Assembly: GCA_949130485.1 (NCBI GenBank)
Contig: OX422184.1
Coordinates: 3,657,204 to 3,721,203, forward strand
DNA length: 64,000 bases
From: Agelas oroides
Lineage: Eukaryota; Porifera; Demospongiae; Agelasida; Agelasidae
Direction of reading: 5' to 3'
Under the pieces are notes generated by a model. It did no database searches. It had not been told where the DNA came from and saw only the letters and a list, made by a program, of their open reading frames with translations. A program made the translations under genes and the position numbers. Shown in pieces: positions 13,670 to 33,354 of the stretch; position 1 is the first letter of the stretch, and every line of letters starts with the position of its first letter.

Positions 13670-14678
13670 ATGGCGGAGAAAATAGTAGAAGCTTGTCAAA
13701 ATGGCGACGTCGAAAGTGTAAAGGACTTCGTGGAAAAACAGCACGTTAACCCGAATAAATGTCAAGATGATGAGCACGGAAAAGCTCCACTCCACTGGGC
13801 CTCGCACTACGGCCGCCTGAAAGTTATGAAGTATTTAGTAGAGAATTGTAAATGTGATCCAATGTGCAGAGATGTTACGTGGAACACTCCACTGCATTGG
13901 GCCGCGCGCTATGCAAACCTGGAAGCTGTGAAATACTTAGTAGAGGACTGCAAGTGTGATGTAATGTGCAGAAATGAACAGAACAATACACCTCTCCATG
14001 ACGCTGCGATGGGTGGCCAAGTAGAAGTTGTGGATTTTCTGATAAGCCAGAAAAACTGTGACCCTGGGGTTTTAGGTCAATGGGATAGAACTCCTCTTCA
14101 CTATGCTTGTGAGATGGACAACACTGCTGTAGTAAGATTTCTTCTAGAAAGTTCATGGTATGACAAACCCTCATGCAAAGATAAAGCAGGCCTTACCCCT
14201 CTTCACTTAGCAGCCTCAAATGGAAGTTTAAGTGTAGTTCAATACCTGATTGAAGAAAAGAACAGTGAGATGGAATGTAAAAACAATGAAGGTGAAACTC
14301 CACTCCATGAAGCCATTAAAGGAGGCAGATCAGACACAATGAAATACCTAATCAATAAAGGTTGTGACCCAATGTGTCGGAGCAAGTTTGGTGGAACTGC
14401 TCTTTACTATGCCTGTCAGAATGGAAGAGTTGATGAAGTGAAATATTTGATTGCAGATAAGAACCTTGCAATTGACTCCCCATGTGATAGTAGTGGTGCA
14501 TCACCACTCCATATTGCAGCAGCCAATGGACAACTGGATATAGTGAAGCTGCTAGTGGAAACCTTTATGTGTAAATTTGATGTTCGAGATAGCAATGGAC
14601 AAACTCCATTAGAGTATGCTCAGAATAATCACAAGGAAGAAATTGCTTCGTACCTGCTGGAGTTTGATGAAAAGTCTG
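13670..14678 (+). CDS. Ankyrin-repeat exon (first coding exon)
   Basis: The ATG sits in GCATGGCGG, a good start context. About nine ankyrin repeats fill residues 5-333: the TPLH-type helix starts are seen as APLHWASHYG, TPLHWAARY, TPLHDAAMGG, TPLHYACEMD, TPLHLAASNG, TPLHEAIKGG, TALYYACQNG, SPLHIAAANG and TPLEYAQNN. The repeats bind protein partners. If not spliced, the frame would stop 11 bases past the donor (Gly-Lys-Asn-stop). The GTAAGA donor at 14679 leaves one base (phase 1), which pairs exactly with the phase-1 kinase exon at 17016 to make a Gly codon. A stand-alone 339-residue ankyrin protein is the alternative reading. Confidence 0.9.
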
Positions 14679-14830
14679 GTAAGAATTGAATTGTACTGTG
14701 TTATGTAGTGATGAAATATTATGATTGTGATTAATGACCTTAATTATCACTCATAGATGTAAGAACCAAGGGAGCACTTGGAGCATGTATCCCCCCAACA
14801 TTTATGCTATTTGCCACATCCATTTTGCAT

Positions 14831-16087
14831 GTAGAGTAAGTTAGCAATCATCGGACGACAGGTATATTCGGACACTCAAACGCGGAGGGAAAACTGCGTA
14901 AACATTCGGCGATACCACAAGACTGTAGCTGAGGTACGTGGTACCTGGTGTACCAAAAATGACGCCCGCGCATTGTTTCCTGTTGGCGCTAGAAGCGATA
15001 AAATGGCCGTCCGAAAAACATCAATATTCGGAAAAGTGTATGTATTTTCAGACACTGTTGTTTTTGCCTTCTCTGAAGCTGCTTTTGGAGAGATTTTAGC
15101 ATCGATACGATGCCCCAAGACCTCCCCAATTCGCAATATATTTTGGTAGCGGTAGCTGCTTTGAACACTCAGGGGCGCAGCTGAACATGGACCAGTCCGA
15201 TTCGATCGATATCGGACGGTGAAATTTGTCATTTCTTGCTGTGTTGTCTCCAAACAAGTTGAAGTCTCCACCATATTAGCATCAGTAGAATCTACAGGCT
15301 CTTGGCTACATGCTGGTACTTGTCCATAGTTTGTGCGTTGAGTAGTTCTCGAGATATAAATATATCTGTGACAGTCCCGTGTAGAAATCGAAGGTTATTC
15401 CATTGCGTATTTCGATCGCATCGCTGCGTTCAAAGCGCCGTATCGCTGAACTTCCGTTAAGGGCGGGGCTCATACGCGCTTCGTAGATGCATTCTCATGT
15501 TTAAACTACGCTGGTTGATTTATGTGCAGCATAAATAGGTGAGTTCAAACGATATCGTGCAATATCTCGAGAACTAATCAACGCACAAACTCCGGACAAG
15601 TACCAGCATGTAGCCAAGAGCCTGTAGATTCTACTGGTGCTAATATGGTGGAGACTTCAACTTGTTTGGAGACAACACAGCAAGAAATGACAAATTTCAC
15701 CGTCCGATATCGATCGAATCGGACTGGTCCATGTTCAGCTGCGCCCCTGAGTGTTCAAAGCAGCTACCGCTACCAAAATATATTGCGAATTGGGGAGGTC
15801 TTGTATCTCGTATCGATGCTAAAATCTCTCCAAAAGCAGCTTCAGAGAAGGCAAAAACAACAGTGTCTGAAAATACATACACTTTTCCGAATATTGATGT
15901 TTTTCGGACGGCCATTTTATCGCTTCTAGCGCCAACAGGAAACAATGCGCGGGCGTCATTTTTGGCACACCAGGTACCACGTACCTCAGCTACAGTCTTG
16001 TGGTATCCCCGAATGTTTACGCAGTTTTCCCTCCGCGTTTGAGTGTCCGAATATACCTGTCGTCCGATGATTGCTAACTTACTCTAC
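14831..16087. mobile_element. Giant foldback element (arms about 525 bp)
   Basis: The left arm 14831-15358 and right arm 15565-16087 are near-perfect inverted copies, starting GTAGAGTAAGTTAGCAATC and ending with its complement. Only some 205 bases separate them. The arms code the same chance frame on opposite strands, so it is not a gene. The centre carries a half copy of the GTGACAGTCCC palindromic family. It lies in the intron between the ankyrin and kinase exons, and its transcript could form a long RNA duplex. Confidence 0.9.
15350..15510. repeat. GTGACAGTCCC family, half copy inside the foldback centre
   Basis: GTGACAGTCCCGTGTAGAAA, the string CGCTGAACTTCCGTTAAGGG and GGGGCTCATACGCGCTTCG match the left halves of the elements at 34227 and 36820. 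The right half is missing. Confidence 0.65.
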
Positions 16088-17015
16088 ATTAAGTATTGCA
16101 CTAGTTTTGTCTGTAGCGAACATGAGCCTCCGATTGTCAAGAAAGTAAAGCAATGTAAGCATACCTTTGTTAGAGCCACACAGTCAGTTTTCTCGACACC
16201 AACTATGAGCCACCATCATTTATAGTCTGCAAATAAGGTTCGAGCATGAGATTAGTTCACTGAGTCGCCATTCCTTCATTACAACGATGACGGCCGGCAG
16301 CAACAGGTACACACATCTATTTACGTAGAATCTGCAAACACTAGTATTAGATCTATATCTCTATGTGTTGTGTACATACCAAATTAAAACTCTGCTTTCC
16401 GAAAAAAAGAAACAATCTCCAAGGAAATGGCCCGGTTGCTGCATGTAGTAATGTATGCAGAATCTGTGGAAGTGTAGCAAATCAGGAATTCTGCTTCCCA
16501 AGACCTACATGTACCAACAAGACTTGCATGGCTGTAGCAAGCGGTTGGGCTGGTCGGGGTTTGGCCCGACCAACTTTTTTGGCGTATGTGCACTAAGTTA
16601 CGCGCAATCTGCAATCACTACCTCACATAGAGTACGTGTAGCAACTACTGAAATTCTGTTTGCTAAGAATTGCAGAACATATATGATGTTTGGAGCCTAA
16701 AATTGGCCTCAGAAGCAATCTCTTGGTGTCTATATTAACAAAACTTTCCTGGGGGAGCATGTCCCCAGATCCCCCTAGATACTACATGTGGTATGTAGAC
16801 TTTGGCCACACCACCTTCAAATAGCTTGCTACGGCCCTGTCTTGATCCTCAAAACAGCTTTAGAAACCATCTCCAAGTATCTAAACTTTTCCTCGGGGCA
16901 TACTCCCAGAGCCCCTGTGTGCTCTTGCATGCAACTTGCTTTGGCTTTGACAATGATCTGTACCCTCCCCAATCAAAAAATGTTCCTACACGTATGTCAC
17001 TGACCACTTCTTTAG

Positions 17016-17906
17016 GTAATATGCGGAAGACCTTGATGAGGCAGCTGAGACCTAAAACTAAGCAAGCAATACGTACTGGAGTTGTGTTAGGAAGTGGAGC
17101 ATACGGTTCAGTCATTGAGCTGAGATGTGAGGGGAAAATTGTTGCTGGGAAGATATTTCGGACAATGTCTACAGCTCATACAGATACTGTGCAGAAGAGA
17201 ATAGAAGAAAAACTGAATGTCTTGATGGCAGTTAACCACCCACATATTGTCCAAACAATGGGAGTGTGTTTTCTTCCCGATGAACCCCTACCTGTGCTTT
17301 TAATGGAACGAATGGAGTACAGTCTGCATTCTTACCTTCTGGACCAAAAACACTCGAGTGTTCCAATTGAGACAAAAGTATCCATTTTATGTGACATTGC
17401 TAATGGACTGGCCCGCCTTCATAACCACAGACCTCCAATTGTGCATCAAGACCTGAAGGCAAACAATGTGCTGTTGGACTCACAGCTGAGGGCAAAAATA
17501 GCAGACATTGGAAACTTCCAAATCTTGAACTGTCACATAACGATTCGAGGATCCTTCAGTTCTCTTCAAGAGCCTGTAGACTATAATCCCCCTGAGGGCC
17601 ATGAGGAAATGTCAGACTGCAGCACAAGCTTTGATGTGTTCCAGTTTGGACATTTGGCACTTTTTACCATCATTCAGACACCAATACGACCCATCCTTGC
17701 TCAAACTTACACTAATGAAAAAACAGGTGTTCTTCATGCTCGTTCTGGGGTGGAGAGACGGCAGCAATTTATAGAGAAAGCTGAGCGGCTGTTGTCTAAG
17801 AATCACTCACTAGTGGTGCTAATCAAACAGTGTCTTCATAACAACCCAACAGAGCGACCTTCCACTGAAAAGCTGTTGACAACACTACAAAAACTATTGC
17901 CTCCAG
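17016..17906 (+). CDS. TKL-type protein kinase exon, copy 1
   Basis: A complete kinase domain of 297 codons in one exon, phase 1 at both ends. Visible: glycine loop GSGAYGSV, lysine in VAGKIF, helix-C glutamate in IEEKLNVL, hinge LLMERMEY, catalytic loop VHQDLKANN (HRD is HQD, but Asp, Lys and Asn are kept), DIG in place of DFG, YNPPE for APE, DVFQFG, and a C-lobe ending CLHNNPTERPS. The catalytic Lys, Asp and Asn are present, so activity is plausible despite the HQD and DIG variants. The PERP-like ending and DVFxFG motif point to the TKL group (LRRK/RIPK/MLK relatives). The intronic codons upstream in the open frame are not part of the exon: TTCTTTAG at 17008-17015 is the acceptor. Confidence 0.9.
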
Positions 17907-18283
17907 GTAATTGTTGATCTACTATACTGATCTAGTAGTGTCACTAGCTACACCCTGTTCCACAAGAGAGGAAAGGCATCTGGTAACTTGTATTGCATTG
18001 CACTGTGCCGTAGAGCACAGTAGATGCTTCAATGATAACTATATCAAGCTGTGTATGGTCCAGCAACTGGATGTGTCCAATTTATGGCGAATTTACCCAA
18101 TGCTGTTTTTTCGCTTTTGAATGGTTGTAATAGCTTTAGGAATACTGTGACAAAGATACTATAATATTATTTGTAGACTCATAACCTATATAATATCTAT
18201 ATGTCAGATCCACACAAACACCCTAGTTTACTATGAGATGTACGTACGTAGACAGTAGGAACCGTATGGCTCCATTGATAACC

Positions 18284-18375
18284 CGGATCGAATCCGCTGA
18301 GGTGGGATCGAAACCGCTAGCATATCTGATCCAGCCCGGATCGGATTTTCGGGGGGATCGGATCCGCTGTGACAC
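18284..18375. repeat. GGATCSGATYCGCT-rich repeat, copy in first duplication unit
   Basis: Several imperfect GGATCGAATCCGCT or GATCCGCT strings in both orientations. The same stretch occurs at about 20507-20598 as part of the duplication, and an independent diverged copy is at 21465-21630. Confidence 0.6.
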
Positions 18376-18640
18376 TGGCAGGTGATTTGAGAGCATAGTA
18401 ATTTGCCTGGTGGGATGAACTGGGGGCGGGGGTGTGTGTATTATGTGTGCACTTCGCGCGGTATTATGGCCGGACCATTTCAAATTTGGTTCCTACGGGC
18501 CTGTGCTAGATTAGTCAACAGCCTCTATGAGCCATATCAGTATCACGCACACAGTAAAGTTCTCACATGTTATACAATGTAAATGTATAACATGTGTATG
18601 GCTGTTTCATATACAATGTAATTACATTATGCATCTGCAG

Positions 18641-18757
18641 GAATAACTGAGCAAATCCTTCGCACACCTCAGAATCTTGAACTTCTGAAACACATTCAAC
18701 AGGGATACAAACACTCTGATGTTGTCCAGAAAAATGTCATTGATATCACTTTGAAGA
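18641..18757 (+). CDS. Small exon between the two kinase exons
   Basis: 39 codons, phase 1 at both ends, from GCATCTGCAG to GTAAGTG. It encodes ITEQILRTPQNLELLKHIQQ and then GYKHSDVVQKNVIDITLK, probably helical, with no known domain. It lies outside both duplication units, so only one copy exists. It can be spliced after kinase copy 1 and before copy 2 or the Roc exon without changing frame. Confidence 0.65.
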
Positions 18758-19166
18758 GTAAGTGCATGCATGCTCACTGCTTCATCTTTTAATAGTATGA
18801 CTTGCACTCTGGTGTTATGGTTAATTAAGTAGTCCTGCATAAATGGTGGTACAGATACTAGTGGCATGCTGCGGACAATGCATAGAATTAGATCACACTG
18901 TCAAACATTTTATGATGTAGATTGAATACATACACACATCATGTTAGTGCCAAGTATCTTTCCTTTAATCAATGGGAGAGAAACAAGAAAGCAAGTCTTA
19001 TGTAGACTTTGGCCACACCACCTTGAAATAGCTTGCTACGGCCCTGTCTTGATCTCCAAAACAGCTTTAGAAACCATCTCCAAGTATCTAAATTTCCTCG
19101 GGGCATACCCCCAGACCATGTGTGCTCTTGAACGCAACTTGCTTTGGCTTTGACTGTGATCTGTAC

Positions 19167-19187
19167 CCCCCCCCCCCCCCCCCCCCC
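19167..19187. repeat. Poly-C tract
   Basis: An unbroken run of about 21 C, some 50 bases before the acceptor of the second kinase exon. In copy 1 the same place reads only CCCTCCCC. Confidence 0.9.
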
Positions 19188-19238
19188 TCCCCAAATCAAA
19201 AAATGTTCCTACACCTATGTCACTGACCACTTCTTTAG

Positions 19239-20129
19239 GTAATATGCAGAAGACCTTGATGAGGCAGCTGAGACCTAAAACTAAGCAAGCAATACGTACT
19301 GGAGTTGTGTTAGGAAGTGGAGCATACGGTTCAGTCATTGAGCTGAGATGTGAGGGGAAAATTGTTGCTGGGAAGATATTTCGGACAATGTCTACAGCTC
19401 ATACAGATACTGTGCAGAAGAGAATAGAAGAAAAACTGAATGTCTTGATGGCAGTTAACCACCCACATATTGTCCAAACAATGGGAGTGTGTTTTCTTCC
19501 CGATGAACCCCTACCTGTGCTTTTAATGGAACGAATGGAGTACAGTCTGCATTCTTACCTTCTGGACCAAAAACACTCGAGTGTTCCAATTGAGACAAAA
19601 GTATCCATTTTATGTGACATTGCTAATGGACTGGCCCGCCTTCATAACCACAGACCTCCAATTGTGCATCAAGACCTGAAGGCAAACAATGTGCTGTTGG
19701 ACTCACAGCTGAGGGCAAAAATAGCAGACATTGGAAACTTCCAAATCTTGAACTGTCACATAACGATTCGAGGATCCTTCAGTTCTCTTCAAGAGCCTGT
19801 AGACTATAATCCCCCTGAGGGCCATGAGGAAATGTCAGACTGCAGCACAAGCTTTGATGTGTTCCAGTTTGGACATTTGGCACTTTTTACCATCATTCAG
19901 ACACCAATACGACCCATCCTTGCTCAAACTTACACTAATGAAAAAACAGGTGTTCTTTATGCTCGTTCTGGGGTGGAGAGACGGCAGCAATTTATAGAGA
20001 AAGCTGAGCGGCTGTTGTCTAAGAATCACTCACTAGTGGTGCTAATCAAACAGTGTCTTCATAACAACCCAACAGAGCGACCTTCCACTGAAAAGCTGTT
20101 GACAACACTACAAAAACTATTGCCTCCAG
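19239..20129 (+). CDS. TKL-type protein kinase exon, copy 2
   Basis: 891 bases, the same length, phases and splice sites as copy 1. By eye only two coding differences exist: CGG to CAG near the start (Arg to Gln) and CAT to TAT in the stretch GVLxARSG (His to Tyr). All catalytic motifs (GSGAYGSV, VAGK, HQDLKANN, DIG, PPE) are intact. Because both exons are phase 1-1, transcripts could carry one or both. A tandem-kinase protein or mutually exclusive exons are both possible. Confidence 0.85.
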
Positions 20130-21162
20130 GTAATTGTTGATCTACTATACTGATCTAGTAGTGTCACTAGCTACACCCTGTTCCACAAGAGAGGAAAGGC
20201 ATCTGGTAACTTGTATTGCATTGCACTGTGCCGTAGAGCACAGTAGATGCTTCAATGATAACTATATCAAGCTGTGTATGGTCCAGCAACTAGATGTGTC
20301 CAATTTATGGCGAATTTACCCAATGCTGTTTTTTCGCTTTTGAATGGTTGTAATAGCTTTAGGAATACTCTGACAAAGATACTATAATATTATTTGTAGA
20401 CTCGTAACCTATATAATATCTATATGTCAGATCCACACAAACACCCTAGTTTACTATGAGATGTACGTACGTAGACAGTAGGAACCGTATGGCTCCATTG
20501 ATAACCCGGATCGAATCCGCTGAGGTGGGATCGAAACCGCTAGCATATCTGATCCAGCCCGGATCGGATTTTCGGGGGGATCGGATCCGCTGTGACACTG
20601 GCAGGTGATTTGAGAGCATAGTAATTTGCCTGGTGGGATGAACTGGGGGCGGGGGTGTGTGTATTATGTGTGCACTTCGCGCGGTATTATGGCCGGACCA
20701 TTTCAAATTTGGTTCCTACGGGCCTGTGCTAGATTAGTCAACAGCCTCTATGAGCCATATCAGTCATTATCGAGTGTTTCATGAGCAACAGGATGGTTAA
20801 CTTTGCTGGAAAACATCGCTAAAGTACCAGTCTGAGACCGGCAAGTTGCTAAAACAGGTAAATCGTCTATCTTCTTTGTTCTTCTCTCTACTTTCCACCG
20901 CGATAGCACGATAATAGCTTTAGTCAGTGTCTGACTTGACTAACCCTTGACGAACGAATATCCATGTCCAAATAATACTATAGTTTGGTCTGAAATACAT
21001 ACTTACAATTTTACAACAGTTATTATGACTGTATAGAGCAATTGCTACAATTCCATTGCTCTTGCTTGGGTGGTGGTCTTTCAAGTCCTACACACTCCAT
21101 ATGGTACAAGTCCCAACACTTGTCAATCGCAAAGCAACTCTGGTGATGCGGGGCTGTCTGGG

Positions 21163-21387
21163 TCAGTGGGAATGGCTTTCCTTCTTCTGAAAGCAATTAT
21201 GTATATGCTTCCATTCCTTGGCTATGTAGTGTAAAATGCCATCCTTGATGACAAACTTCTTCCGTGTTGCTCGCTTCTGGTTTACACATCCGTTCCCAGT
21301 TCCTGCTGGATACTGGAGTTCGTGGAGATAGTCATAGATCATCTGGTAGTCGATTTCCATGAGTCCCAAAGTTCTGAATAATGTCAA
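21163..21387 (-). mobile_element. Fossil integrase-type fragment
   Basis: A short remnant whose residues (YLHELQYPAG, then KRATRKKFVIKDGILHY) resemble the zinc-binding N-terminal region of Ty3/gypsy-like integrases and related Ginger-type transposases. Only this piece is visible, without flanking repeats or other parts. It is a broken, old insertion in the intron upstream of the Roc exon. The family assignment is tentative. Confidence 0.45.
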
Positions 21388-21464
21388 AATTATGTTCTAA
21401 AAGTGTTAAGAAATTGTACATCATCCTGACAGCTAGTGATTTTTCTTAACAGAACACTTGCACC

Positions 21465-21878: not shown

Positions 21879-24193
21879 CTCTGGAAAACCAATCACATTA
21901 TGAAGCCTATCAAAGGGCATTAAAGGAAGGAGTTGCAATACCACTGAAGTATCTGAAAGTCCTCTTTTTTGGCCCTCCGCGAACAGGAAAGACATCCATG
22001 AGGCGTCGCTTGGTTGGAGAGATTCGGAACCTTACAAATTTAGAGGAACCTGTTCAACCAAGTACTGGCACAGCAGAAGTTTATGATGTCATTGTCAAGC
22101 TAGTTGAGGACACGACTACCACTTCAACAGCAGTCATCACAAAGTCCGAGTGGTCAAGTGTAAAAACATTGTTTGGCCAACAAAAAAGCACCCATGAGAC
22201 AGACTTGGATGACGAATTACGGTTTCTTTTCCGGTTTATTTATGAAGCTGATCCTACAACTCGAAAGAAGTCTCCTGTTTCTAAACCAGTTAAGGAAGAA
22301 GCTGAGAAAAAAAGCCTGGATGAAGCTAGCAAAGGACACAGTCCAGCTATATTGCAAATAGATAATGTTACAGGTCCCACTGTATCACCCAAAACTATTG
22401 ATCCTGAAAGCTCTAAACTTCAGGAAGTCTCACCAGAGTATGAACTTAGTGCTGAACAAACGGAAGAAATTGAAAAAGCATTTGAAGCTTTTAATAAGAT
22501 ACTGCATACAGCTGGAGAGGAAAAGCTTCAGGTTTTGTTGGAAGGAACTATTCTTATGAACATGGTTGACACAGGTGGTCATCCAGCATTCCTTGAGATG
22601 CTTCCGGCCCTGACAATGGGCCCAGCACTCTATCTCATTTTCTTCAGGCTCAACCAAGAGCTGAAAAATACATATTGGATACAGTATGTCAGCGAAAACA
22701 ATGAAAATATCCAAGTAGGTGATTCTTCATACACTGTTGAAGAAGTAATCTTTCAGGCCCTATCAAGCATAGCATGTTTCAGCTGCACTGCACCAAAGAA
22801 AGCTAACATGCCCAATCCATCTCATGCTGCTATGCTCATAGGTACACACAAGGATCTGCTTGGAAGTGATCCAGAAGCAGAAATTAAAGCTAAAGATGAT
22901 GCACTGCAGAAAGAGATTTCAGTAGACGACCTTTTCAAGGAAGGCAAAAAATTTCTGCGTTATGCTTTTGAAGATCAGCTCATGTTTGCAGTTGATAACA
23001 TGAACGGAGATAAAAAAGAACTTACAAAAGTTCATAAACGGCTTGAGAATATAATGAAAAACTACTTTGATAACTTTTCCATTCCAGCTTCTTGGCTTAT
23101 GTTCAGTATCTTCCTTCGTAGGATAAGTAAGATGGGCAACCATACCTTGAGTTTGTCACAATGTCGCGAGATTGGTGCCAGACTAAAAGTGAGAGACATA
23201 GATGAAGCACTGTGGTTCCTACACCACTGTGTTGGAACCCTGATGCACTTTCCTGATGTAGGTGAGATTAAAGACATTGTGATCTGTGATCCTCAAGTTG
23301 TCTTTGACAGTGTTACAAATCTGATTTTGAACAGCTTTACATTTAACACTGTAGACAAGCTAGCTAGTGAAACTTTCAAAAGAACTGGCCAGTTTAGCAT
23401 TGAGGACATTAAGATGACTGCAAAAAAATTGAAATGTGACATCCTTCCCCAGCTGAAACTTTTGAAGCTCCTTGAACACCTCAACATCATTGCACCTATC
23501 AAATCTGAAGGCAGTAGCCCACAATCAGATGCATACTTCATGCCTGCTGTGCTCAAACATGCCACAGAAGAAGAACTACACATGGAGCAAAGCTCCACAG
23601 ATCCAGTCCCTCTCATGATTCACTTCAAGTGTGGCTTTGTACCTATTGGTGTGTTCTGTGCTATGATAGCCAGCCTTGTTGCTCAAGGGGAAACTCTTGG
23701 GTGGGTTCAGGAACCCAGAGATGGTCATAATTTGTATAAGAACAAAGTCACATTTCGTATCAATGGTGCCTATAATATCACCTTGATATCAAAGCCAAAG
23801 CAGTATGAAATTCACATTGCTCGTATCTCAACTACAGACAGGGCATTGGAAGAAATCTGTGTACATGTTTTGGAAACTGTTTGTGACATTCTGGACGAAG
23901 TAATCTCCAAAATGAAGTACAAACGACTGATCTCTTCCCTTTCTGATCAAACACTCTATGAGCTGGGTTTCAAATGCCCAAAACATCTGAGTAGTGATCA
24001 CCTAGTCATTAACAAACCAATAGGTGGAGTAAAATCTCGGCCATCACGGTCTGCAATGTCTCTCTGGTCAAACTACCTTGCAATAGGAAGAAAGTCAACG
24101 ATGATTTGTCTGAAAGAACAAGTTTTCATTGATCTTAGAGATACAACTTTGTCTCCACCTTTTGCTCAGCAGAGTCTTGTCTGGTTTGGAAAA
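21879..24193 (+). CDS. Roc-COR (ROCO) GTPase exon
   Basis: About 771 codons in one exon, phase 1 in and phase 0 out. Roc GTPase: P-loop GPPRTGKTS (near exon residue 32), switch II VDTGGHPAFLE, and the base-specificity motif THKD in IGTHKDLLG. A Ser/Glu/Lys-rich insert of about 90 residues (KKSPVSKPVKEEAEKKS...) separates the P-loop part from the DTGG strand. COR domain: ASWLMFSIFLRRI, then LWFLHHCVGTLMHFP, and later the FMPAVLKHA and FIPIGVFCA-type strands (here FVPIGVFCAMIASLV). ROCO proteins use Roc-COR for GTP-dependent dimerisation that controls a neighbouring kinase or death domain. The donor GTAAGT at 24194 replaces an early stop in the unspliced frame. Confidence 0.95.
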
Positions 24194-24255: not shown

Positions 24256-24319
24256 GCTACAGAAATTTCTTCTGCATTATCTGCTAAGGACGCCCCCCAT
24301 GACGTACAAGGAGACCAAG
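24256..24319 (+). CDS. Linker exon after COR
   Basis: 21 codons plus one base, from TTGTAG to GTATGC, phase 0 in and phase 1 out. It encodes ATEISSALSAKDAPHDVQGD, a flexible linker before the death domain. Confidence 0.75.
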
Positions 24320-24387
24320 GTATGCAAGATGATGTACCTTAACCAGTCTTGCCATGACTTGTCTCCCCCTTTTATTTTTTTGCTTAG

Positions 24388-24678
24388 CTAAAGAGCTAGA
24401 TGTGAAGAATATTGTGAATGTACTTCATGAGGCTAACTTTTCTGATGGTCGTTGGGAAGAACTTGGCCAGCAGTTGATAGACCATCCTGATTTAACAACT
24501 ATCAGAGCAAATCGTCACAATAACTGTAGTCTCTGCATGAGTGACACAGTATCCCAGTGGCTAAGGACTGATACTCAAGCATCCTGGGAGAAGCTTGCTG
24601 ATGCTGTATCTAAGGTGGGAGGATATGGAGAAGCCACTGCAGACTGTGTTCGGCATAAAGCAGGAATAGTCCACATAG
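24388..24678 (+). CDS. Death domain exon 1
   Basis: 97 codons, phase 1-1. The six-helix death pattern is clear: LDVKNIVNVLHEANF, RWEELGQQLIDHPDL, then VSQWLRTDTQASWEKLADAV with the conserved W in helix 5 (SWEKL). Following Roc-COR, this repeats the DAPK order. It likely mediates homotypic death-fold contacts. Confidence 0.85.
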
Positions 24679-24883
24679 GTATGTTTTGTCTGATGAGTGT
24701 ATTTTGTGAATTGCAATTTAGATCTCATATTTTCTTAACTGCCTTAATTTGCAGTATCACCAACTGTCCATGATATCACCAAGTTGTAGCTACAGACAAA
24801 ATCTTTGCTTCTTACAAATTACCACCATAAAAACTTACACTTCCAGCAAGAGTCTGGCTACGCGAGACTAGCTAGGAGGAAAG

Positions 24884-25798
24884 GGCATATGGAAAAGCAG
24901 GAAATGGAAATGAAATGGAAACTGGAAACAGAAACTGGAAACGGAAATGGAAACAAAAAACGCACCAATCACTGGTGCAATGTTTTCTTCATAGTGTGCT
25001 TAGTCATTACTCTTGTATTCTACTTAGCAATGGTTATAGGACTGGCTTTATGAGTCGTGCTTTGCCTTTACTCCTGTACTGTGCTTTGTGATTACTGCTT
25101 TTAGTGTGATTGAGTAGCGCTTGCTCATGTTGCAAGCAATGTTGCAATCTAGTGTGAGAGGGTCTGGGCACAAGACTATACTAGTTGCAATCTGACCATG
25201 AGAGTAACGTACTTCGTTTTGGAACAAGGCCAGCATTCCTACTCTTGCAGCCTCTTTCTTAGACCCACTTCCAGTTTGATTGCTTGCAGTGTGTGAAGCA
25301 AATTATTAGCCCCGGGTACAATAGCCCCATTCCCAACCATTGCCCCCCCCCTCCCCCCCTCCCCAATACTTGCCAATGCAGAAATACTGGTGTAGTGTTC
25401 TGATTCAAACATTAATCTCAGGACATGTACAGGGCATATTTATACAGAATAAGCTAGTTACTAAGTGTGGAACACCAAAGATAGAATACTGCTGAGAACA
25501 TAAACAATGACTTGCACAACCCAAGTGAGAACTGGGGGGCGGTGAAGGCCTGGGAACAAGGTTAGGCTAGCAAAGCAGCTGCATGATCACAAACTGGAGG
25601 CAGGGAGAGCACTAGCTGGGATGCCTAGGAACGAAAACCAACAACAATTGAATCTCGCTAGGACTACACAGCTAAGAGGTTGCGTTTCCATTTCTGTTTT
25701 CAGTTTCCGGTTTCCGCTTTTTGCTTTCACTTCCGTTTCCAATTTCCAATTTCCAGTTTCCATTTCATTTCCATTTCCTGCTTTTCCATATGCCCAGG
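24884..25798. repeat. Inverted GGAAAY-rich arms
   Basis: The left arm (24884-24960) is a string of GGAAATG and GGAAACTGG units opened by CATATGGAAAAGCAGGAAAT. The right arm (25675-25798) is its complement, with further TTTCCRTTTCC variants. They enclose about 715 bases. Confidence 0.65.
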
Positions 25799-25940
25799 AG
25801 GAAAGGAGGAAGGAAAGAATGGAGGGAGAGGGAAGGGAGGGAGGGAGAGTGAGGGAGAGAAGAGGATGGGAGAAAGAAGAAAAGAGGATGAAAAGGGGCA
25901 GGGAAGAAGGGGGGAGGGAAGCAGGGGAAGGAAGTGGGTA
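25798..25940. repeat. Purine-rich (GGGA/GAAA)n tract
   Basis: About 140 bases of almost pure G and A on the plus strand, without regular period. Confidence 0.8.
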
Positions 25941-26539
25941 TAACCTCTATGCAGCTGGATGAAAATGCACCAACTCCAAGACACCCTATTTCTGAAGTCA
26001 TGGCGAACATTAGCCCCACAGCTAGGGCTTTCAAGTAGTGAGGTGGAAGCAATTGAAGGGGATGCACATAGTGAAAGAGAGAATGCAGAAGAACCTTCAA
26101 TCATTGAAGACTAAGTTTGCATTCAAGGCAAAGTACCAGGCACTTGTTGAACCACTTCTGAAAATTGGCAGTGCTGACCAGGCATACAAGTCTGTCATTC
26201 TCTGGCATCACAACAAATGGATGTGTCTGGAAATAAGACTGGTCTACAATAACATTGACCACTAAGCTATTTCTCTGCTAGTACTAGTATCTAATCACTT
26301 GTGTACCAGGGCACTTTCTAATTATGCATCACTCAAAACATTTTGCAACGTACTGGTAATGCAAGAATAGAAATTCAATCATCCCAGCTGTTGTACAAAA
26401 TTAGAAGTATGCCGCACAAACAGAAAACTCCTTTTATGGCACATCATAACCTGGAGTCGGTGGCTCAATAAGTACTACCTTTCTTCCAAAAATGCATGCA
26501 TACCTACCTTGTGTTTTTAATTCTCTTCCCCTACTGTAG

Positions 26540-27245
26540 AAAAACTGCCCTCTCAGCTACTTAGTCACCAACTCAAGTGTACTCAACCCCAGTTGCTCAG
26601 TGTGAAAAAAGAAATAGAGCAATTGCAGAAGAAATATGAAGTCCTCACAGGTGATGTTCTGAAGGCTTTTAAAAGGAGAAATTTGCCTGTTGAAGAGGTT
26701 AGGACCTGCATCAGACAGCTCCCAGAGCCCCTGAAGCACCAGTGCAGTGAATTTATTCTAAACCAAGCATCACGCCTCTCTCAAGCTTCCAGCATTGATG
26801 AACTCTTTTGGATATTATCCATCTACTGGGATTTTCTAAATCCTGACCTACTTGTCCACCTGACTGACAGATTTGGCGATGGTCAAGTAAAAACATCAGT
26901 AACATATACATGGAAGAGCTACGGGGATTTCGAAGGCGAACCAAACTCAAAGATTTCATCAACCAATGGACAAGCCATGCTAGACATGATTTTCACAAGA
27001 TTGTCGTGGTATTAAAAGATGAATGGAAAGAGCGCAATCTTGAAGATTTGGAGGGATTTCGAGATAAACTCTCACTTAAACAATGGCTAATGCTACGGTT
27101 TGATGGTATTGTAGAAGGTTGTATGGCTGCTATGTTTTCTTTCCCAAAGGCAGCTGACCTTGAGCTTGAAAGTCTCCATGGATTCTTCCAAAAGTATCAG
27201 ATCCTAAGGGTGTTTCTTAATGGAGCCTGCATTTTTAATTTACAG
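26540..27245 (+). CDS. Helical regulatory domain exon, with a one-base frame break
   Basis: Phase 1 in (CTACTGTAG acceptor), phase 0 out (CAG/GTATAT). First frame: coiled-coil-like LLSVKKEIEQLQKKYEVL, then SIDELFWILSIYWDFLNPD and LLVHLTDRFGDGQVKTSV. From about 26900 the match continues one frame over as YMEELRGFRRRTKLKDFINQ, then FHKIVVVLKDEWKERNLED and FNLQ at the end. The exon is one base short of keeping frame, so either a base was lost in the locus or the sequence has an error. From memory, similar regions (ILSPYWDFLNYxLLEHI..., YMxELxxFR) occur in sponge and cnidarian multidomain proteins; I know no name for the domain. Confidence 0.7.
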
Positions 27246-27598
27246 GTATATACCCTTGTGTTAAGTAAAAGACCATTGTTCCATATATAAAAGCTGAAAG
27301 GAAGATATATACTGTGATGTGAATCCACTGTGAGGTTTACCACTTAATTGGAACATCACATGCATGTAGTTTTACATTACATATGGTCAACATCTAGTGA
27401 TAGCTGTAAATACAGAAAGTAACTAACTCTTTAGAGGCCAAGTTTGGTAACTGTGAGTTAAGGAGTTATAACTGTTTTAATTCATGGACACATGTAGCAT
27501 AAAATCAAGCTAACTGATAAGGTGAACTTAGGTACACTATTAGTAGCCAACACTCGAAAGCTGTAATAATTATTAAATTTTGGTTTCTGCCCCCGTAG
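27246..27598. other. Intron
   Basis: 353 bases, AT-rich. Nothing further is seen. Confidence 0.6.
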
Positions 27599-27740
27599 GA
27601 AGCAGATGGTGCAATGGTGCAGCCAGTGGTGGAAAGAGAATCTAAGTTTCAGGGAGAAAGAGTGAGAGAGAGAACGGGGGAAAGGAGGAATGATGAGGAA
27701 AAAGGGAAAGAATGGAAGAAAGAAGAGAGGTTGAAGGCAG
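27599..27740 (+). CDS. Charged linker exon with a GC donor
   Basis: CCCCCGTAG is the acceptor. It encodes EADGAMVQPVVERESKF and then a run rich in Arg, Glu and Lys. The frame would stop at TAG two codons later, but AG/GCAAGT at 27740-27746 is the classic GC-AG donor consensus. Using it gives phase 0 in, phase 1 out, exactly what the neighbours at 27245 and 28555 require. Alternatively it is a terminal exon ending at 27750. Confidence 0.55.
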
Positions 27741-28554
27741 GCAAGTAGTGAATATGAGAGCTGTTGAAAGGTCCATGCAAACCTGGTCACATACTGTACA
27801 CAGTATACAAGCAAAGCAGATGATATACCTCTGTACTTACTCAATATCTTACACTCAACTAAACAAGGTTAACAGGTTGCATAATCTCAAAAACAGAATA
27901 CACCTCACTTTGTCATTTTCCAACTTCTTTAACATGACATTGCCTAATGAGATGCTTTCTTTATCCCAATTATTTCCGTGTTAGATCTTGCTAGCAATTT
28001 TAGTACAGTACAACCACAGAGATAATATCATCCCAGATGCCTCTCATCATGCACTCTTTTTTCTTCCATGCTAAATAATGACAGTCATGCTCAGCTTGTT
28101 GGAACTACCTCTCAGCCCAGAAACTGTCATGGCAAATTGTTGTAGCACAACCTTAAATTAAGAGACAGTATTCACCAACAAAAATTTCCAACTACCTATC
28201 AGTATAGTAATAGTTCCAGTAAGGTAGATGAGTGCATGTTATAAACTCGGCTAAGTATTGTTAATAATTAGTGCAGCAGCAGCCTTCCATATAACTGGAT
28301 TAGCCAAAATAAAAATTCTAAGAGTTGAACCCTTGCTAGATTGGATCTACCGTTCTATATATAATGATGGTATGCTTACTGTAAAACTGATGCTATTGCA
28401 TATGATACTGTAACTCCTTTTTTTTTTACATGGGACATAATATTATAACTTCAACGCTCGTGCATGGTTTGCATGAAAAAGAGAGTTAATTAGATGGTGA
28501 TGAATTCTGTACATGGATGTATGAATTGCCTTGAGATTCATATTTTCATTGCAG

Positions 28555-28656
28555 CTGGTCCAGACAAGATAGAGATAAAACACCAGAATATGCAGAGAGA
28601 AACTGTGGAGATCAAACAGCAGCATGTACAGGCAAAAGCTACATCCAAGGAGCAAA
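28555..28656 (+). CDS. Linker exon before ZU5
   Basis: 34 codons, phase 1-1, from CATTGCAG to GTATGTG. Residues GPDKIEIKHQNMQRETVE then IKQQHVQAKATSKEQ form a helix or coiled coil. No known domain. Confidence 0.7.
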
Positions 28657-28747
28657 GTATGTGATTGTTAAGTGTGCATCTGTGGCTCTTTTATTGTGCA
28701 CAATGCATGCCTAGATACTCTTTGAAGTGCAGTCTTTCTGTCTACAG

Positions 28748-29352
28748 CACACATAAGGGGAACTGAAGTTATTGCACAGAAGACCTTTATTCTCACACAA
28801 GAAGAGATTGAGATCAAGTTTGAGGGCTATGGATTCAAGCTGCATGTACCAGAAGGCAGTCTACCAGCACAAGTGTCAGAAACTCAGCTGAATGTGCGAG
28901 TTAGCCTGTCTGGCCCTTTCCAGATACCTTCCAATTCTGAACTTCTCAGCGCGGTTTATTGGATCTCCAGCCCCCACAAGTTTGCAAAGCCCATCACTGT
29001 CAGAATACAGCACTGTGCTGTACTCTCTAGTGATAAACAATGTTCAAAACTAACATTCGTCTATACCAAGTGTACCCAGAAGGAAGGTCCTTACATCTTC
29101 AAAGAGCTAGTGGGCGGAGTCTTCAGCACCCATAGTTCATATGGTAGTTTATCACTATCCCACTTTTCTGGTCTTGCTATAGTAAATAGATCACCTCTTG
29201 AGTTAGAACAACAACGACAACAGACAACACAGACTGGACAGGAGGCAGGGGGAGTTGTTGAGCAATACTGTGCTCAACTCTACACCCACAAATTGGTCAA
29301 TGAGTGGAAGGTGATCTTTGTTGTCACAAAGGACCTTGACAGTTGCTCAACT
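28748..29352 (+). CDS. ZU5 domain exon
   Basis: Phase 1 in (CTGTCTACAG), phase 0 out (ACT/GTGAGT). ZU5 signature: GYGFKLHVPEGSLPA, then strands LNVRVSLSGPFQIP, ELLSAVYWISSPHKFAKPIT and IQHCAVL, and SLSHFSGLAIV at the end. This is the ZU5 beta-fold of ankyrins, UNC5, ZO-1 and PIDD, which packs against UPA and death domains to keep them autoinhibited. After it comes a Gln-rich stretch (LEQQRQQTTQTGQEAGG) and the start of a UPA-like region. The frame-open tail after the donor (VSASQNFVMNV) is intronic. Confidence 0.9.
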
Positions 29353-29417
29353 GTGAGTGCATCACAAAATTTTGTTATGAATGTATAGCTATTAGTCATG
29401 CATATACTTCCCTGCAG

Positions 29418-29561
29418 GTTGTGAAAAAGGAGTACTCCTCTCATGCTCATCAACAGTTTTCATTCATTTTTGGTTTTGAGAGTGAATCTGTGTCCCTTAA
29501 AATTCCTAAGGAGGGTCTACAGCTTGGCAAATGGCAAATTACCCCTTTCTATGACCCTATA
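29418..29561 (+). CDS. UPA-like region, exon 1
   Basis: 48 codons, phase 0-0, CCCTGCAG to GTAAGT. Beta-strand pattern VVKKEYSSHAHQQFSFIFGF and LQLGKWQITPFYDPI. By position after ZU5 it should be the UPA domain. Similarity by sequence is modest. Confidence 0.75.
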
Positions 29562-29609
29562 GTAAGTTTCTTACTGTGTATAGTAATTCTATCTTTGCTT
29601 TGTGTGCAG

Positions 29610-29823
29610 AACAGCACCCAAGATCCATCAATGGTCTGTGTCTTCGTAAATCTGCTACAGATCACAAGGCAGCAGGTCAACCACTTCATTTCTGGAAAAA
29701 CTATCCCCAAATGTGAGCTGGTTCTGGAATGGGGTGAAAACACACCACCAGCTCTCTTGCACCATCCAGTTGATCTGCTTGGTGCACGTGATCACAACTA
29801 CTTCCTGCTACGTGTTAATCCAG
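29610..29823 (+). CDS. UPA-like region, exon 2
   Basis: 71 codons plus one base, TGTGCAG to GTAAAT. It encodes MVCVFVNLLQITRQQVNHFI, CELVLEWGENTPP and YFLLRVNPG. It completes the ZU5-UPA unit. The intron before it is only 48 bases. Confidence 0.75.
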
Positions 29824-29898
29824 GTAAATGACTTGCTATTACAGCCTTTGTACTCAGTGCTTGCAATACTAAAGTGGGAGAGAGCCTGACAAACTTGT

Positions 29899-30533
29899 AT
29901 ACCGTATTCTCTCTAAAATAATTAAAAATGGGAGTATCCGTAAAATTTTAGAGAGTTAGTCATTTTTGAATGGAAGTGTCTGGTGCGAACTAGAGAGTTT
30001 TATAGCGCCAGTTTCATAGTGCTATGTCTGATTATTGCTGCCTTCTGTGTGCATCGGTCAGGACCCACGAAGACACGTACTGAGCATTGCCTTTCAAAGT
30101 GGCGAAGTGTAGTGGCCGAAGCAAAAACGACTTATTGGGCACCTTTCAACGCCGATAAGCAGAAGCACATCACTAACTATGGAGGTACAGTAGTACTTGG
30201 GCTTCCTAAATATTGGAGTTGCGCCTTGCTATCAACGAAAGACGGCACACACGACATGCAGCAGGTAAGCGTTCTCCGGCTGTAAGCAGATGACCTATTT
30301 CAAAAGAACATACCATTTGTTGAAATAACCTCGTGAGCCTCTCTTCATACCTTGTTTCGCTCTGGAGTTTCTTTATTACCCAACACTCCGACAAACGATT
30401 TCAGCATCGTTAGTGTCCGAGTGTATTAGAGGGGAAAAATTCCTCTGCTGTCCAGTTAGTTAGAGAGATGAAAAATTCATAATTGAGGTTTCCGGACAAT
30501 TAGAGTGTCCACTATTTTAGAGAGAATACGGTA
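29899..30533. mobile_element. TIR element ACCGTATTCTCTCTAAAATA
   Basis: The left end TACCGTATTCTCTCTAAAAT is inverted at the right end as ATTTTAGAGAGAATACGGTA, with TA at each flank. The interior of about 595 bases has no transposase. It is a non-autonomous element in the intron after the UPA exons. Confidence 0.85.
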
Positions 30534-30874
30534 TCAAGTATTTCCGAGCATTATCCAGTGTACATCCGGAGATGTGGTGTAATCCCGAAAAGTTGTATTT
30601 TGATCTGCTTGCGTGCAAGCTCAGTAGCTGAGCTCAAAGCAAGTTAAACTGTAAGTGATTGCAGCAGCACTGTCAACGTCAAGGCAAAGAATCATTTGGG
30701 AGTTTTGTGAGATTAAGATACACATCAAGATACATCTATACATGTGGCAACCTTTGCCAGGCCTTCTCACACTTTAGTACTACGGAACAAAATCTGGACT
30801 GAAGATCTTGATATGAGGCTAGGATACTACACATAATGTTACGGTGATGATGGTAACCATCCTCTATTATACAG

Positions 30875-30949
30875 ATGTAGACACATCCACTCCCAGGGCT
30901 GTAGAGGCATCCTCACCTAGCAGTGCAAGTCCCCCATCTTTACATGAAG
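30875..30949 (+). CDS. Ser/Pro linker exon
   Basis: 25 codons, phase 1-1, TATACAG to GTTGGT (a weak donor). Encodes DVDTSTPRAVEASSPSSA and more Ser/Pro. Probably a disordered linker between UPA and the last death domain. Similar in composition to exon 32427-32528. Confidence 0.5.
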
Positions 30950-31212
30950 GTTGGTCCAAACTTGCCTCAGGCCTTTATGTGAATGCTATAGCTCAGTACT
31001 ATGCATCAGGCACATATGGTGAACTGTGTTCATACTATGTTATACTTGGCACCAAGATGTGAAATCTATATATAGCTAGGACACAGATAGTACTCACTAT
31101 TTCACTACTATTGAGATGACTGTCATTGTGAGATAAGCATTAGCTAATACCTTAAAGTGTAAGCAGAATGGAGGGTGTTGTCTGCAGATGGATTACCTGC
31201 ATGATGTACCAT

Positions 31213-31713
31213 CATTATTCTAATAGAATGGTAGGAAATTAAATCTGGCTTCACAAAAACTTCCAAGAACCCAATTGCTTCCACTGGATTAGATCTATCG
31301 CTGTAATGGAAGCACATTTTCAAGCACTAGCCACACACGGCCTTGACCAGGGAGTGTTGCTTGCAGTACTAAATTACCGTAGGCTTTCCCACTTTCGGAA
31401 CAGTATCGGCTCCGGGAACTTCAACCGTCTGAGCATCGTTCTGTCTGGGTGCACTACAACACCTCTGCCAGTGACTTCACAAGTGCTGTTTTGATAACAA
31501 CACTTCCTGGTGTACTCAACAGTCTTGCTCTGCCCGTAACTACGCTGTTTTTGCTAAGAACGCTTTGTGGTGTCTACTGCTACGGACTCTTCCGCTAAAT
31601 TGGATTCACTCTAAAACAATTAGTGCAGCTACCTTCCGCAAATTGGATTAACAAAAATCGCAAGAATTGAATTTCTTCCGCTAGATTGTATCTACCGTTC
31701 TATTAGAATAATG
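31213..31713. mobile_element. TIR element CATTATTCTAATAGAA
   Basis: CATTATTCTAATAGAATGGTAG at the left end is inverted at the right end as CTACCGTTCTATTAGAATAATG. The interior is about 460 bases without a transposase frame. A related right end occurs near 28300-28365. Confidence 0.75.
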
Positions 31714-31864
31714 TATAAAAATCGTGTTGAACTGGAGCACAAAGTGGATCTACTGGGAAATAAAGGCCCCCATCAGTTTTTCACCATCACTTGCTCTCCC
31801 CGAGGTAAACATCAGGGATATACAATTTTATGCTCAAATGCATGTTTTTATTGAAAATGTCTAG

Positions 31865-31933
31865 AATATGTTGTTGAGAAGCCAGCTAGAGTCACTGGTG
31901 GAAAAAGAAAACAGGTGGAAGAGAAGCAACATG
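31865..31933 (+). CDS. Linker micro-exon a1 (basic)
   Basis: 23 codons, phase 1-1 (TGTCTAG to GTAAGC). It encodes a stretch with KPARVTGGKRKQVEEKQH. It pairs with the next exon, and the pair is repeated at 32172/32316. Confidence 0.6.
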
Positions 31934-32024
31934 GTAAGCTAATGCACTGTAAGTGTGATGCCTGATCACAGATACTTACTTTTAAAAAACCATTTGCTGT
32001 TCAATTTCCTTCTGCACTGTACAG

Positions 32025-32054
32025 AAGTGCCAAAGAAGAGGCATTTAAGCGATG
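32025..32054 (+). CDS. Linker micro-exon b1 (PKKR)
   Basis: 30 bases, phase 1-1 (TGTACAG to GTAAGT). It encodes VPKKRHLSD, an NLS-like basic cluster. Confidence 0.6.
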
Positions 32055-32171
32055 GTAAGTTGTACTATATAGCCAGGCAAGAAATTCACACAAATAAAAC
32101 AATACAACCAACACTTCCAAATTGCTACTATTTGAGATATCTAATAACACTTCACCGTCTTTCCTCATTAG

Positions 32172-32252
32172 AATCTCCCACAGTAGAAGATATGGAGAAG
32201 CCAGTTAGAGCCACTACTGGGAAAAGAAAACAATCAGGAGGAGAACAGCAAG
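32172..32252 (+). CDS. Linker micro-exon a2
   Basis: 27 codons, phase 1-1 (CTCATTAG to GTATTA). It encodes SPTVEDMEKPVRATTGKRKQ and SGGEQQ, a clear paralogue of exon a1 (EKPxRxTxGKRKQ in both). Confidence 0.6.
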
Positions 32253-32315
32253 GTATTAACCATCGTATGGTCTAGTTTCTTGTTAGATTCACACTACAAA
32301 TTCTCTACTGTGCAG

Positions 32316-32345
32316 GACTGCCAAAGAAGAGGTGTTCAACCAATG
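32316..32345 (+). CDS. Linker micro-exon b2 (PKKR)
   Basis: 30 bases, phase 1-1 (TGTGCAG to GTACGT). It encodes LPKKRCSTN, a paralogue of b1. Confidence 0.6.
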
Positions 32346-32426
32346 GTACGTATGTAGCACTAGCCAGTAGGTCGACCACAAAATCAATACTTAGAATTAC
32401 TATGCTGTTTGATATCTGTACTTCAG

Positions 32427-32528
32427 TTTCAGTCACCAGTGCTGCAGCCACTCACACTCCTAGTCTTGCAGCTACAGATGATGGAATGCTTTCCCCCAGC
32501 AGTGAAAGCACCACATCTTCAAGCCAAG
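32427..32528 (+). CDS. Ser/Thr/Ala linker exon
   Basis: 34 codons, phase 1-1 (ACTTCAG to GTATGT). Low-complexity VTSAAATHTPSLAATDDG and SPSSESTTSSSQ. A second AG six bases in could be used instead, also in frame. Confidence 0.55.
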
Positions 32529-32849
32529 GTATGTAGGAGTATGTCAATACTCCTTAGTTGGGAATTGATGCAACATTGTAGCAAGTGATGTTTGACAGAT
32601 CCTTTGGGCCAAGTACATACCAGTCTCACTTCCATTAAGGAATGGTACAACACAGAAGTGCAGACTCAGCTACATGTTTCGAGGGCAACTGCTTGTTATG
32701 TCTTAAGCCTTTACCCAACATTGTAGCTACCGGTATATAACCTTCACATCATATTCTCACACGAAAGTAATATATACCCTACATGCTTAAGCTTTTACCA
32801 GTGACGATGTACATTGTTTCATTTGCCATTATACTTTTTATTCTGTCAG

Positions 32850-32882
32850 ATCTTGGGACGCATGATGGAGCTGAAACACTTG
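32850..32882 (+). CDS. Micro-exon before the last death domain
   Basis: 33 bases, phase 1-1 (CTGTCAG to GTAAGT). Encodes LGTHDGAETL. Small, but its phase and both splice sites fit the chain. Confidence 0.45.
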
Positions 32883-33064
32883 GTAAGTGTAATGAGTGTA
32901 TTTCCTTTAGAAAGCCATCTAGCCTGCATGGTGTCAAGCTAGGGGGAAGAGTGCTTGGTTCCCACTGTATGCAGTATCATAATGTAAATATTAGTGTGAC
33001 ACAAGTGTATGCTTTTTACATGCATCTATAAATAGTTGATGATTGCAAATCATCATATGTGTAG

Positions 33065-33354
33065 ACATAAACAACGTTGCTGACATCACCCACTACCTCC
33101 ACTCACTGGACAGAACAGCATTATTTAACCTGGGCCTGGTCCTGGGCCTTGGCTACGAAAGACTCAGGGCCATGATGGACACGCCCACCTTCCTTCAAGA
33201 CATGCTAGCTGGGTGGCTACAGAGGGTGGACCGAGTGCTAAGGACAGGAATCCCGACATGGACGAAGCTAGTGGAGGCCTTAAAGGATCCAAGAGTAGGC
33301 CAGAATGGACTTGCTCGTGAGATTGAGCAAAACGAGCAACAATTACTGAGTTAA
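33065..33354 (+). CDS. C-terminal death domain exon
   Basis: Phase 1 in (ATGTGTAG), stop TAA at 33352-33354. Helices: VADITHYLHSLDRTALFNLG, LVLGLGYERLRAMM, DMLAGWLQRVDRV, and PTWTKLVEALKDPRVGQNGL with the helix-5 W. This is a classic C-terminal death domain after ZU5-UPA, as in UNC5 and PIDD. It is different in sequence from the death domain at 24388, so the protein would have two. Confidence 0.9.

Follow-up and report, generated by a model that had tools for sequence, protein, structure and literature searches.

We analysed a 64,000-nucleotide stretch of the genome of the sponge Agelas oroides (contig OX422184.1, positions 3,657,204 to 3,721,203; the window, whose own numbering is used below) and describe a candidate gene at 13670–33354 on its + strand that joins ankyrin repeats, a kinase, Roc-COR, ZU5, UPA-like exons and two death domains. 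We put the probability at roughly 0.57 that 13670–33354 is a single gene whose product would be a cytosolic death-fold scaffold of several domains and about 2,150 residues, working by the mechanism proposed below. The gene is best read as a mosaic assembled from shuffled symmetrical phase 1-1 exons, a Roco and PIDD-like hybrid belonging to a large, modular family that looks to serve cell death or immunity. This reading is carried by one open frame, by a locus elsewhere in the genome that repeats the order from Roc to the last death domain, and by two further loci that combine a kinase with ZU5 and weak death-domain matches.

Gene model and reading frame

Splicing 18 exons in silico yields a single open frame of 2,153 codons that runs from an ATG at 13670, with an in-frame stop just 5′ of it, to a stop codon at 33352–33354; both ends agree with those given in a first-pass annotation of the window. 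Apart from the ATG start and the terminal stop, the exon borders of the model are AG acceptors and GT donors. The modules follow each other in the order ankyrin, kinase, exon m, Roc-COR, linker, first death domain (DD1), exon h, ZU5, two UPA-like exons, seven linkers and second death domain (DD2), and the joined frame, Pfam matches and homology bear out the named modules in the order that had been claimed for the + strand. Exon 1 (13670–14678) holds the start codon and the ankyrin repeats (336 amino acids; Pfam Ank_2, E 1e-74) and ends in phase 1 at a GT donor with its frame open; the splice to the kinase is as described before, G plus GT giving Gly. The linker after Roc-COR (24256–24319, phase 0-1) was placed by AG/GT borders and frame, and the seven small linkers (30875–30949, 31865–31933, 32025–32054, 32172–32252, 32316–32345, 32427–32528 and 32850–32882, all phase 1-1) by these alone.

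Almost every module of the gene is a symmetrical phase 1-1 cassette. Because nearly all modules share this phase, agreement of splice phases is weak proof of one gene, and we dropped it as such. The first-pass statement that all neighbouring exon pairs match in phase holds when 26540–27245 is skipped and fails when this segment, a helical-looking module that we call exon g, is included. When exon g was compared with two intact relatives (L052 and L053, on C21 and C1), a frameshift was found between about 26890 and 26907. Since the frameshift and a wrong exit phase break the full-length frame, with a stop at codon 1721, exon g is ruled out of that frame and must be skipped. The same intron, between DD1 and exon h, also has an inverted repeat (24883–25795, 83% complementary) that flanks purine-rich sequence.

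Recurrence of the module order

At C9:9051000-9063000 (L050–L051), Roc-COR, a death domain, ZU5, a UPA-like region and a death domain recur in the same order at approximately 27–39% identity. COR-A (35.7 bits against a cut-off of 35.3), ZU5 and both death domains at this locus score above their Pfam cut-offs, and Roc (15.8 against 27) below. Such recurrence is better proof of one gene than phase agreement. A second arrangement is found at C16:1580675-1614354, where two tandem sets of kinase, ZU5 and weak death domain lie on the same strand with no Roc match; the ZU5 follows each kinase by 4.5 and 7.3 kb, respectively.

To quantify such co-location we counted rows of genomic matches (62 for Roc, 79 for DD1, 150 of 156 for ZU5, 102 for DD2 and the best 30 of 135 for the kinase); rows are matches, such that one locus can count twice and the DD1 and DD2 queries can share one exon. 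Of the 62 Roc rows, 14 (10 loci with the window included) have a DD1 match on the same strand no more than 10 kb downstream, and none has one within 10 kb upstream or on the other strand. ZU5 matches were found within 20 kb downstream at five Roc rows, which correspond to the window, C7:8276612, C2:2979729 and C9:9051639, and otherwise at none. This one-sidedness is weaker at 40 kb, at which Roc and DD1 are paired 15 times downstream and 6 times upstream, and Roc and ZU5 7 times downstream, never upstream and once on the opposite strand. Among the best 30 kinase rows, four have ZU5 within 20 kb downstream (both kinase copies of the window and both C16 loci) and one has it upstream (one member of that C16 pair).

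In other assemblies, contigs were paired by equal length alone among the best 120 matching rows of 579 for Roc-COR, 422 for the kinase and 330 for ZU5. Contigs of at least 10 kb in common numbered 12 for Roc and ZU5 (one of 31 kb), 2 for Roc and kinase and 1 for kinase and ZU5, or 11, 1 and 0 once the contig holding this gene is set aside. Without the 10 kb limit, the kinase and ZU5 lists also have one length in common, 4,674.

Modules of the predicted protein

The Roc-COR GTPase exon (21879–24193; 771 amino acids, phase 1-0) has 579 matching proteins, and the COR Pfam entry is present in 113 of the best 120 of these (one of which, P0002, is this same gene). The window exon itself stays below the Pfam cut-offs, with 28.2 bits against 35.3 for COR-A (E 2e-6) and 22.6 against 27 for Roc (E 1.3e-4); the Roc motifs are legible as G1 GPPRTGKTS, G3 DTGG and G4 THKD. 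Searching a Roc-COR profile against sequences in the PDB returned a single match, 4wnr, around the P-loop (E 7e-4), and an AlphaFold model of the fold (predicted local distance difference test, pLDDT, 44.9) was too poor to use. Roc is followed directly by COR, the arrangement that defines Roco proteins. The core of Roc-COR and DD1 is part of a Roco family that is present in many copies on C1 and C2. Close Roc relatives occupy 17 other places on C1, C2, C3, C6 and C7 at 60–77% identity, with three shorter fragments uncounted. In a protein from another assembly (P0001), most of the Roc-COR segment is duplicated inside one open reading frame (ORF).

Exon m (18641–18757; 39 codons, phase 1-1) has four copies in the genome and is 97% identical in a tandem paralog upstream of the gene; two other paralogs (C2up and L054) also have it ahead of their Roc exon. 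Many paralogs have a further exon before Roc that we label DED-like; the label is our own and the exon has no Pfam death-fold match. Each of its 12 copies precedes a Roc exon by 0.4–15.8 kb, on the same strand. In the window no match to it was found, and kinase copy B sits between m and Roc; a short adaptor exon between kinase and Roc was accordingly rejected for this gene. One Roc paralog on C1 (C1:5049538-5051872) has a caspase-like exon followed by a DED-like exon (L042:5939-6781 and L042:8037-8273) and then Roc-COR; the caspase-like exon matches Pfam C14 (E 1e-24) and has, by eye, QAYLG and SRG at the positions expected for the catalytic Cys and His.

The ZU5 exon (28748–29352, phase 1-0) scores 24.9 bits against a Pfam cut-off of 21. 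At its C-terminal end, the codons at 29161–29169 encode HFS, a predicted autoproteolysis site on the grounds of the PIDD motif and of conservation: of 121 sequences, namely the window and the best 120 of 330 ZU5 relatives, 89 have HFS unchanged, 118 keep F and 112 keep S. PIDD is described as cutting itself after each ZU5 at HF/S, and CARD8 and NLRP1 as being cut at SF/S, with UNC5b having Leu at the Phe position (PMC3210808). The window ZU5 ends in HFS, like that of PIDD. Because of this motif, one would more specifically expect self-cleavage in the manner of PIDD and NLRP1 than just autoinhibition, which narrows the earlier remark that ZU5-UPA modules are autoinhibitory elsewhere. A ZU5 profile found no ZU5 among PDB sequences; the single exon gave weak matches to the ZU5 of ZO-1 (E 0.15), and a fold comparison did return ZU5 domains.

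After ZU5 come two exons that we call UPA-like, conserved on C7 and C9 with no Pfam UPA match: 29418–29561 (phase 0-0), 68% identical in a C7 ZU5 gene, and 29610–29823 (phase 0-1), 56% identical on C7 and 39% on C9. The closest ZU5 and DD2 relatives are mainly on C7. In one ZU5 exon on C7 (L049, reverse strand), a long, repeated segment rich in glutamine is inserted between ZU5 and the exon end, within a 629-codon ORF. Exon h (28555–28656, phase 1-1) looks coiled-coil-like; the upstream paralog has a sequence matching it at 56%, 5 kb beyond DD1, and a C7 gene has two such matches ahead of its ZU5.

The death domains are known through the C9 locus. Neither the DD1 exon (24388–24678, phase 1-1) nor the DD2 exon (33065–33354, including the stop) has a Pfam Death match of its own. 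DD1 matches a Pfam-positive C9 death domain with E 3e-9 in a 19 kb search, and DD2 matches the first C9 death domain with E 7e-7 and has relatives at 65–74% identity, mostly on C7. The two C9 domains score 26.6 and 23.5 against a cut-off of 22.6; the first matches both window exons and the second matches DD1. We therefore regard both exons as death domains by this homology, and the claim that the gene has two stands on that basis. When searched against PDB sequences, one C9 death domain gave no match. Overall, the domain search proposed with the first-pass annotation returned Ank, kinase and ZU5, left Roc and COR-A below cut-off, and gave no Pfam match to Death or UPA in the two death-domain exons and the UPA-like exons.

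The kinase exon and its duplication

The locus has two tandem kinase exons, copy A (17016–17906; Pfam kinase, E 5e-31) and copy B (19239–20129), both phase 1-1 and 2,223 bp apart. They are identical at 889 of 891 bases, with two protein changes (R3Q and H240Y). Their flanking introns agree at 631 of 634 bases on the 3′ side and at 209 of 220 aligned bases on the 5′ side. The frame is kept in silico with kinase A alone, with both copies, or with the ankyrin exon spliced to kinase B and on to Roc; because all three combinations keep it, genomic sequence does not decide which copy is in use. It is possible, and we give the idea tentative credit, that the duplication is an assembly artefact in which two haplotypes were laid end to end and the real exon is single. 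The near identity of exon and 3′ intron is plausible as allelic divergence; the lower identity of the 5′ flank and the fact that the copies flank one single exon m argue the other way, as may a 90% cluster (P0121) with three members on one contig of another record, a count whose meaning is ambiguous.

Two motifs of the kinase are altered, with HQD for HRD and DIG for DFG. Across an alignment of the window and 119 of 422 matches, HRD is present in 115 of 120 and DFG in 117; HQD is found in 3 and DIG in 1, the window included, such that the window alone has DIG. The catalytic lysine and both aspartates are kept. The kinase is thus atypical, and ‘kinase-bearing’ in the proposed ‘GTP-gated, kinase-bearing death-fold scaffold’ need not imply full activity.

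Among the best 60 of 1,836 PDB sequence matches, TNNI3K ranks first and the others include EGFR, BRI1, TYK2, CTR1 and RIPK2, with plant receptor kinases among them; by this criterion of rank only, no DAPK or CaM kinase appears. The nearest kinases in the genome are the two C16 exons (72% identical). In two relatives the kinase shares its ORF with a death-like domain, seen in P0209 as a Pfam match below cut-off (E 0.0014) and in P0175 by eye, which would fit a role like that of RIPK or IRAK. On C5 (C5:3429684-3435362), a 42% kinase match is followed after 4.5 kb, on the same strand, by a different Pfam Roc match (3435021). Intron 1, between the ankyrin and kinase exons, has a fold-back repeat outside the protein (14829–16089, with no strand assigned), whose arms of 282 and 242 nt are 98–99% complementary; it is probably a mobile element.

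One gene or two

Several observations weigh against a single gene of this content. The upstream tandem paralog contains m, DED-like, Roc, DD1 and h; its Roc exon is interrupted by TGA, and no match was found there to ZU5 or DD2, or to a kinase in the 6 kb before m. Because these matches are missing from it, the kinase, Roc-DD1 and ZU5-DD2 blocks are separable, which tempers the earlier claim of a single gene. At C2up and L054, exon m is preceded by an unrelated ORF (ORF X), not a kinase, which occupies the place of kinase A. No Roc row of this family, the window apart, lies within 20 kb of the best 30 kinase rows, and in the 7 kb upstream of the C9 locus no match to the window kinase or ankyrin exon was found at E 1. 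Additional stretches that resemble death domains lie upstream of Roc at the C9 locus, so the gene limits there are uncertain too. The C16 death-domain matches are weak (E 1.6e-4 and 7.8e-4), those loci being known from matches only. The ratio of non-synonymous to synonymous substitution rates (dN/dS) for DD1 is 0.89 against the neighbouring paralog. The broken exon g sits between DD1 and ZU5, and the gene could be decaying. An AATAAA at 28308 lies between the DD1 and ZU5 halves, and none was found after the stop at 33354 in a scan to 35500. Most close Roc relatives do not share a chromosome with the closest ZU5 and DD2 relatives, which would also fit two adjacent genes.

Two such genes would be an ankyrin-kinase-Roc-COR-DD gene, with the domains of DAPK1 in a different order, and a C7-type ZU5-UPA-DD gene that starts near exon h. 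Phase agreement would then be explained as the common 1-1 habit, and the upstream paralog without ZU5 and DD2, the different nearest relatives of the halves and the AATAAA at 28308 would all be in keeping. A DD2 match within 10 kb after ZU5 is moreover common, at 25 of 150 ZU5 rows with the window included, mostly away from Roc rows. However, C9 repeats the full order from Roc to death domain, and the order from Roc to ZU5 is one-sided within 20 kb. One C7 gene has coiled-coil exons ahead of its ZU5; searching the window for them at E 0.01 gave no match, and thus none before h. No AATAAA or ATTAAA occurs within 2.3 kb 3′ of DD1, although the proposed 3′ end of the single gene is also without one nearby; polyadenylation signals are not decisive evidence at either end. 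We consider two genes unlikely, but far from negligible.

That the gene is a pseudogene or a decaying copy is improbable in our view. Decay would account for the loss of HRD and DFG residues, given how rare HQD and DIG are in the alignment, for the broken exon g and for the TGA in the Roc exon of the neighbouring paralog. Yet all 18 exons of the model are open, the catalytic lysine and aspartates are retained, and dN/dS, DD1 excepted, is 0.39–0.43 for Roc, 0.17 and 0.26 for ZU5, 0.39 for DD2 and <0.45 for UPA-like pairs. The Roc values come from 8 usable pairs of ten (L014 and L017 were dropped as nonsense alignments; L016 and further loci were left out). With these points weighed, a single gene from 13670 to 33354 remains our preferred reading.

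Relation to known proteins

Three groups of Roco proteins have been described, and the DAPK1 group is given as the only one with a kinase before RocCOR (PMC6337361); a kinase preceding Roc-COR, which the first-pass annotation took as distinctive, is thus shared with DAPK1. The likeness extends to ankyrin repeats, a kinase N-terminal to Roc-COR and a death domain after COR. In DAPK1, however, the order is kinase, ankyrin, Roc, COR and death, whereas the window has ankyrin first; the DAPK1 kinase is CaM-dependent, whereas that of the window is TKL-like by rank of matches, with TNNI3K best; and the window adds ZU5, UPA-like exons and a second death domain. LRRK1 and LRRK2 likewise combine ankyrin repeats with Roc-COR and a kinase in a single protein, but the kinase is C-terminal to Roc-COR there and precedes it in the window; no match to leucine-rich repeats or WD40 was found in the window exons scanned.

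For the front part, the closest kinase of known structure by sequence is TNNI3K, which has ankyrin repeats followed by a TKL kinase, as in the window. To our knowledge TNNI3K has no Roc-COR, ZU5 or death domain, unlike the window gene. For the tail, PIDD1 shares with the window a ZU5 ending in HFS and probably a UPA-like region and a C-terminal death domain, but it has N-terminal leucine-rich repeats and two ZU5 domains where the window has ankyrin-kinase-Roc-COR and one ZU5 match. The FIIND proteins NLRP1 and CARD8 differ in having CARD where the window has a death domain, and no NACHT was seen in the window gene.

Unusual combinations of death-fold domains have been described in sponges and amphioxus. 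RIP-like kinases of amphioxus are reported in combination with DEATH and, within that group, ZU5, and the available part of that account mentions no Roc-COR with ZU5 (PMC9573974). In the sponge Amphimedon, 357 TRADD-N proteins are reported, up to half with unique architectures (PMC8195603); in the sponge Dysidea avara, NACHT-ZU5 and NACHT-Ank genes are reported, and a legend on its NLR genes mentions a COR domain (PMC12909245). These lineage-specific expansions resemble the window family in being large and in containing many one-off mixes of death-fold, ankyrin, kinase, caspase or ZU5; they differ in that the window family is built on Roc-COR and ZU5, and no search for TRADD-N was made here. 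Given such expansions, odd death-fold mosaics are expected in these animals. In the open-access literature searched, we recognised no paper that joins Roc-COR with ZU5 in one protein, so the remark that no protein with this complete order has been described stands against that literature, in which the joining of Roc-COR, a kinase and a PIDD-like tail appears undescribed.

Neighbouring features

Two further ORFs of the window were annotated. The ORF at 4413–5117, between the upstream paralog and the 13670–33354 gene, encodes a MATH domain of the TRAF type, which scores 40.2 bits in Pfam against a cut-off of 27.4. The ORF at 35607–36398 has weak matches to QRICH1 and DUF3504, both below cut-off, and is perhaps a recombinase-like mobile element.

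Proposed history, mechanism and significance

In its sequence relationships, the frame of kinase, ZU5 and death domain resembles the C16 loci, and the ZU5, UPA-like and DD2 exons resemble C7 genes most closely. The most plausible history would be that a unit of ankyrin repeats and kinase was inserted before m, the kinase exon was duplicated in tandem, the DED-like exon was lost and the Roc-DD1 core became linked to a ZU5-UPA-DD tail.

We tentatively propose that the product would be a receptor for death signalling that cleaves itself. A GTPase switch and a kinase, possibly in the form of two tandem, partly degenerate cassettes, would be placed on the N-terminal half of a ZU5-UPA-DD release module of the PIDD and NLRP1 type, drawn from a recombining, genome-wide pool of phase 1-1 cassettes. 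That pool would comprise ankyrin, kinase, caspase-like, DED-like, Roc-COR, ZU5-UPA and death cassettes. In our preferred reading of the gene, the ankyrin repeats would sense a ligand and the GTP state of Roc-COR would set dimerisation and conformation. ZU5 would cut itself between F and S of HFS and, as in PIDD and NLRP1, the UPA-DD2 fragment would stay attached yet could be released; DD2 (and DD1) would then nucleate a death-fold complex. The kinase could act catalytically or, given HQD and DIG, as a scaffold or pseudokinase.

If this is true, a single chain would connect Roco GTPases to the ZU5-UPA module whose self-cleavage is known from PIDD and NLRP1, and the gene would be a concrete candidate for a GTPase switch that gates the release of a death-fold fragment. 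Because the link between Roc-COR and ZU5-UPA recurs on C9, it is more than a one-off, and the gene would illustrate how one genome can build receptors of this kind by shuffling phase 1-1 exons.

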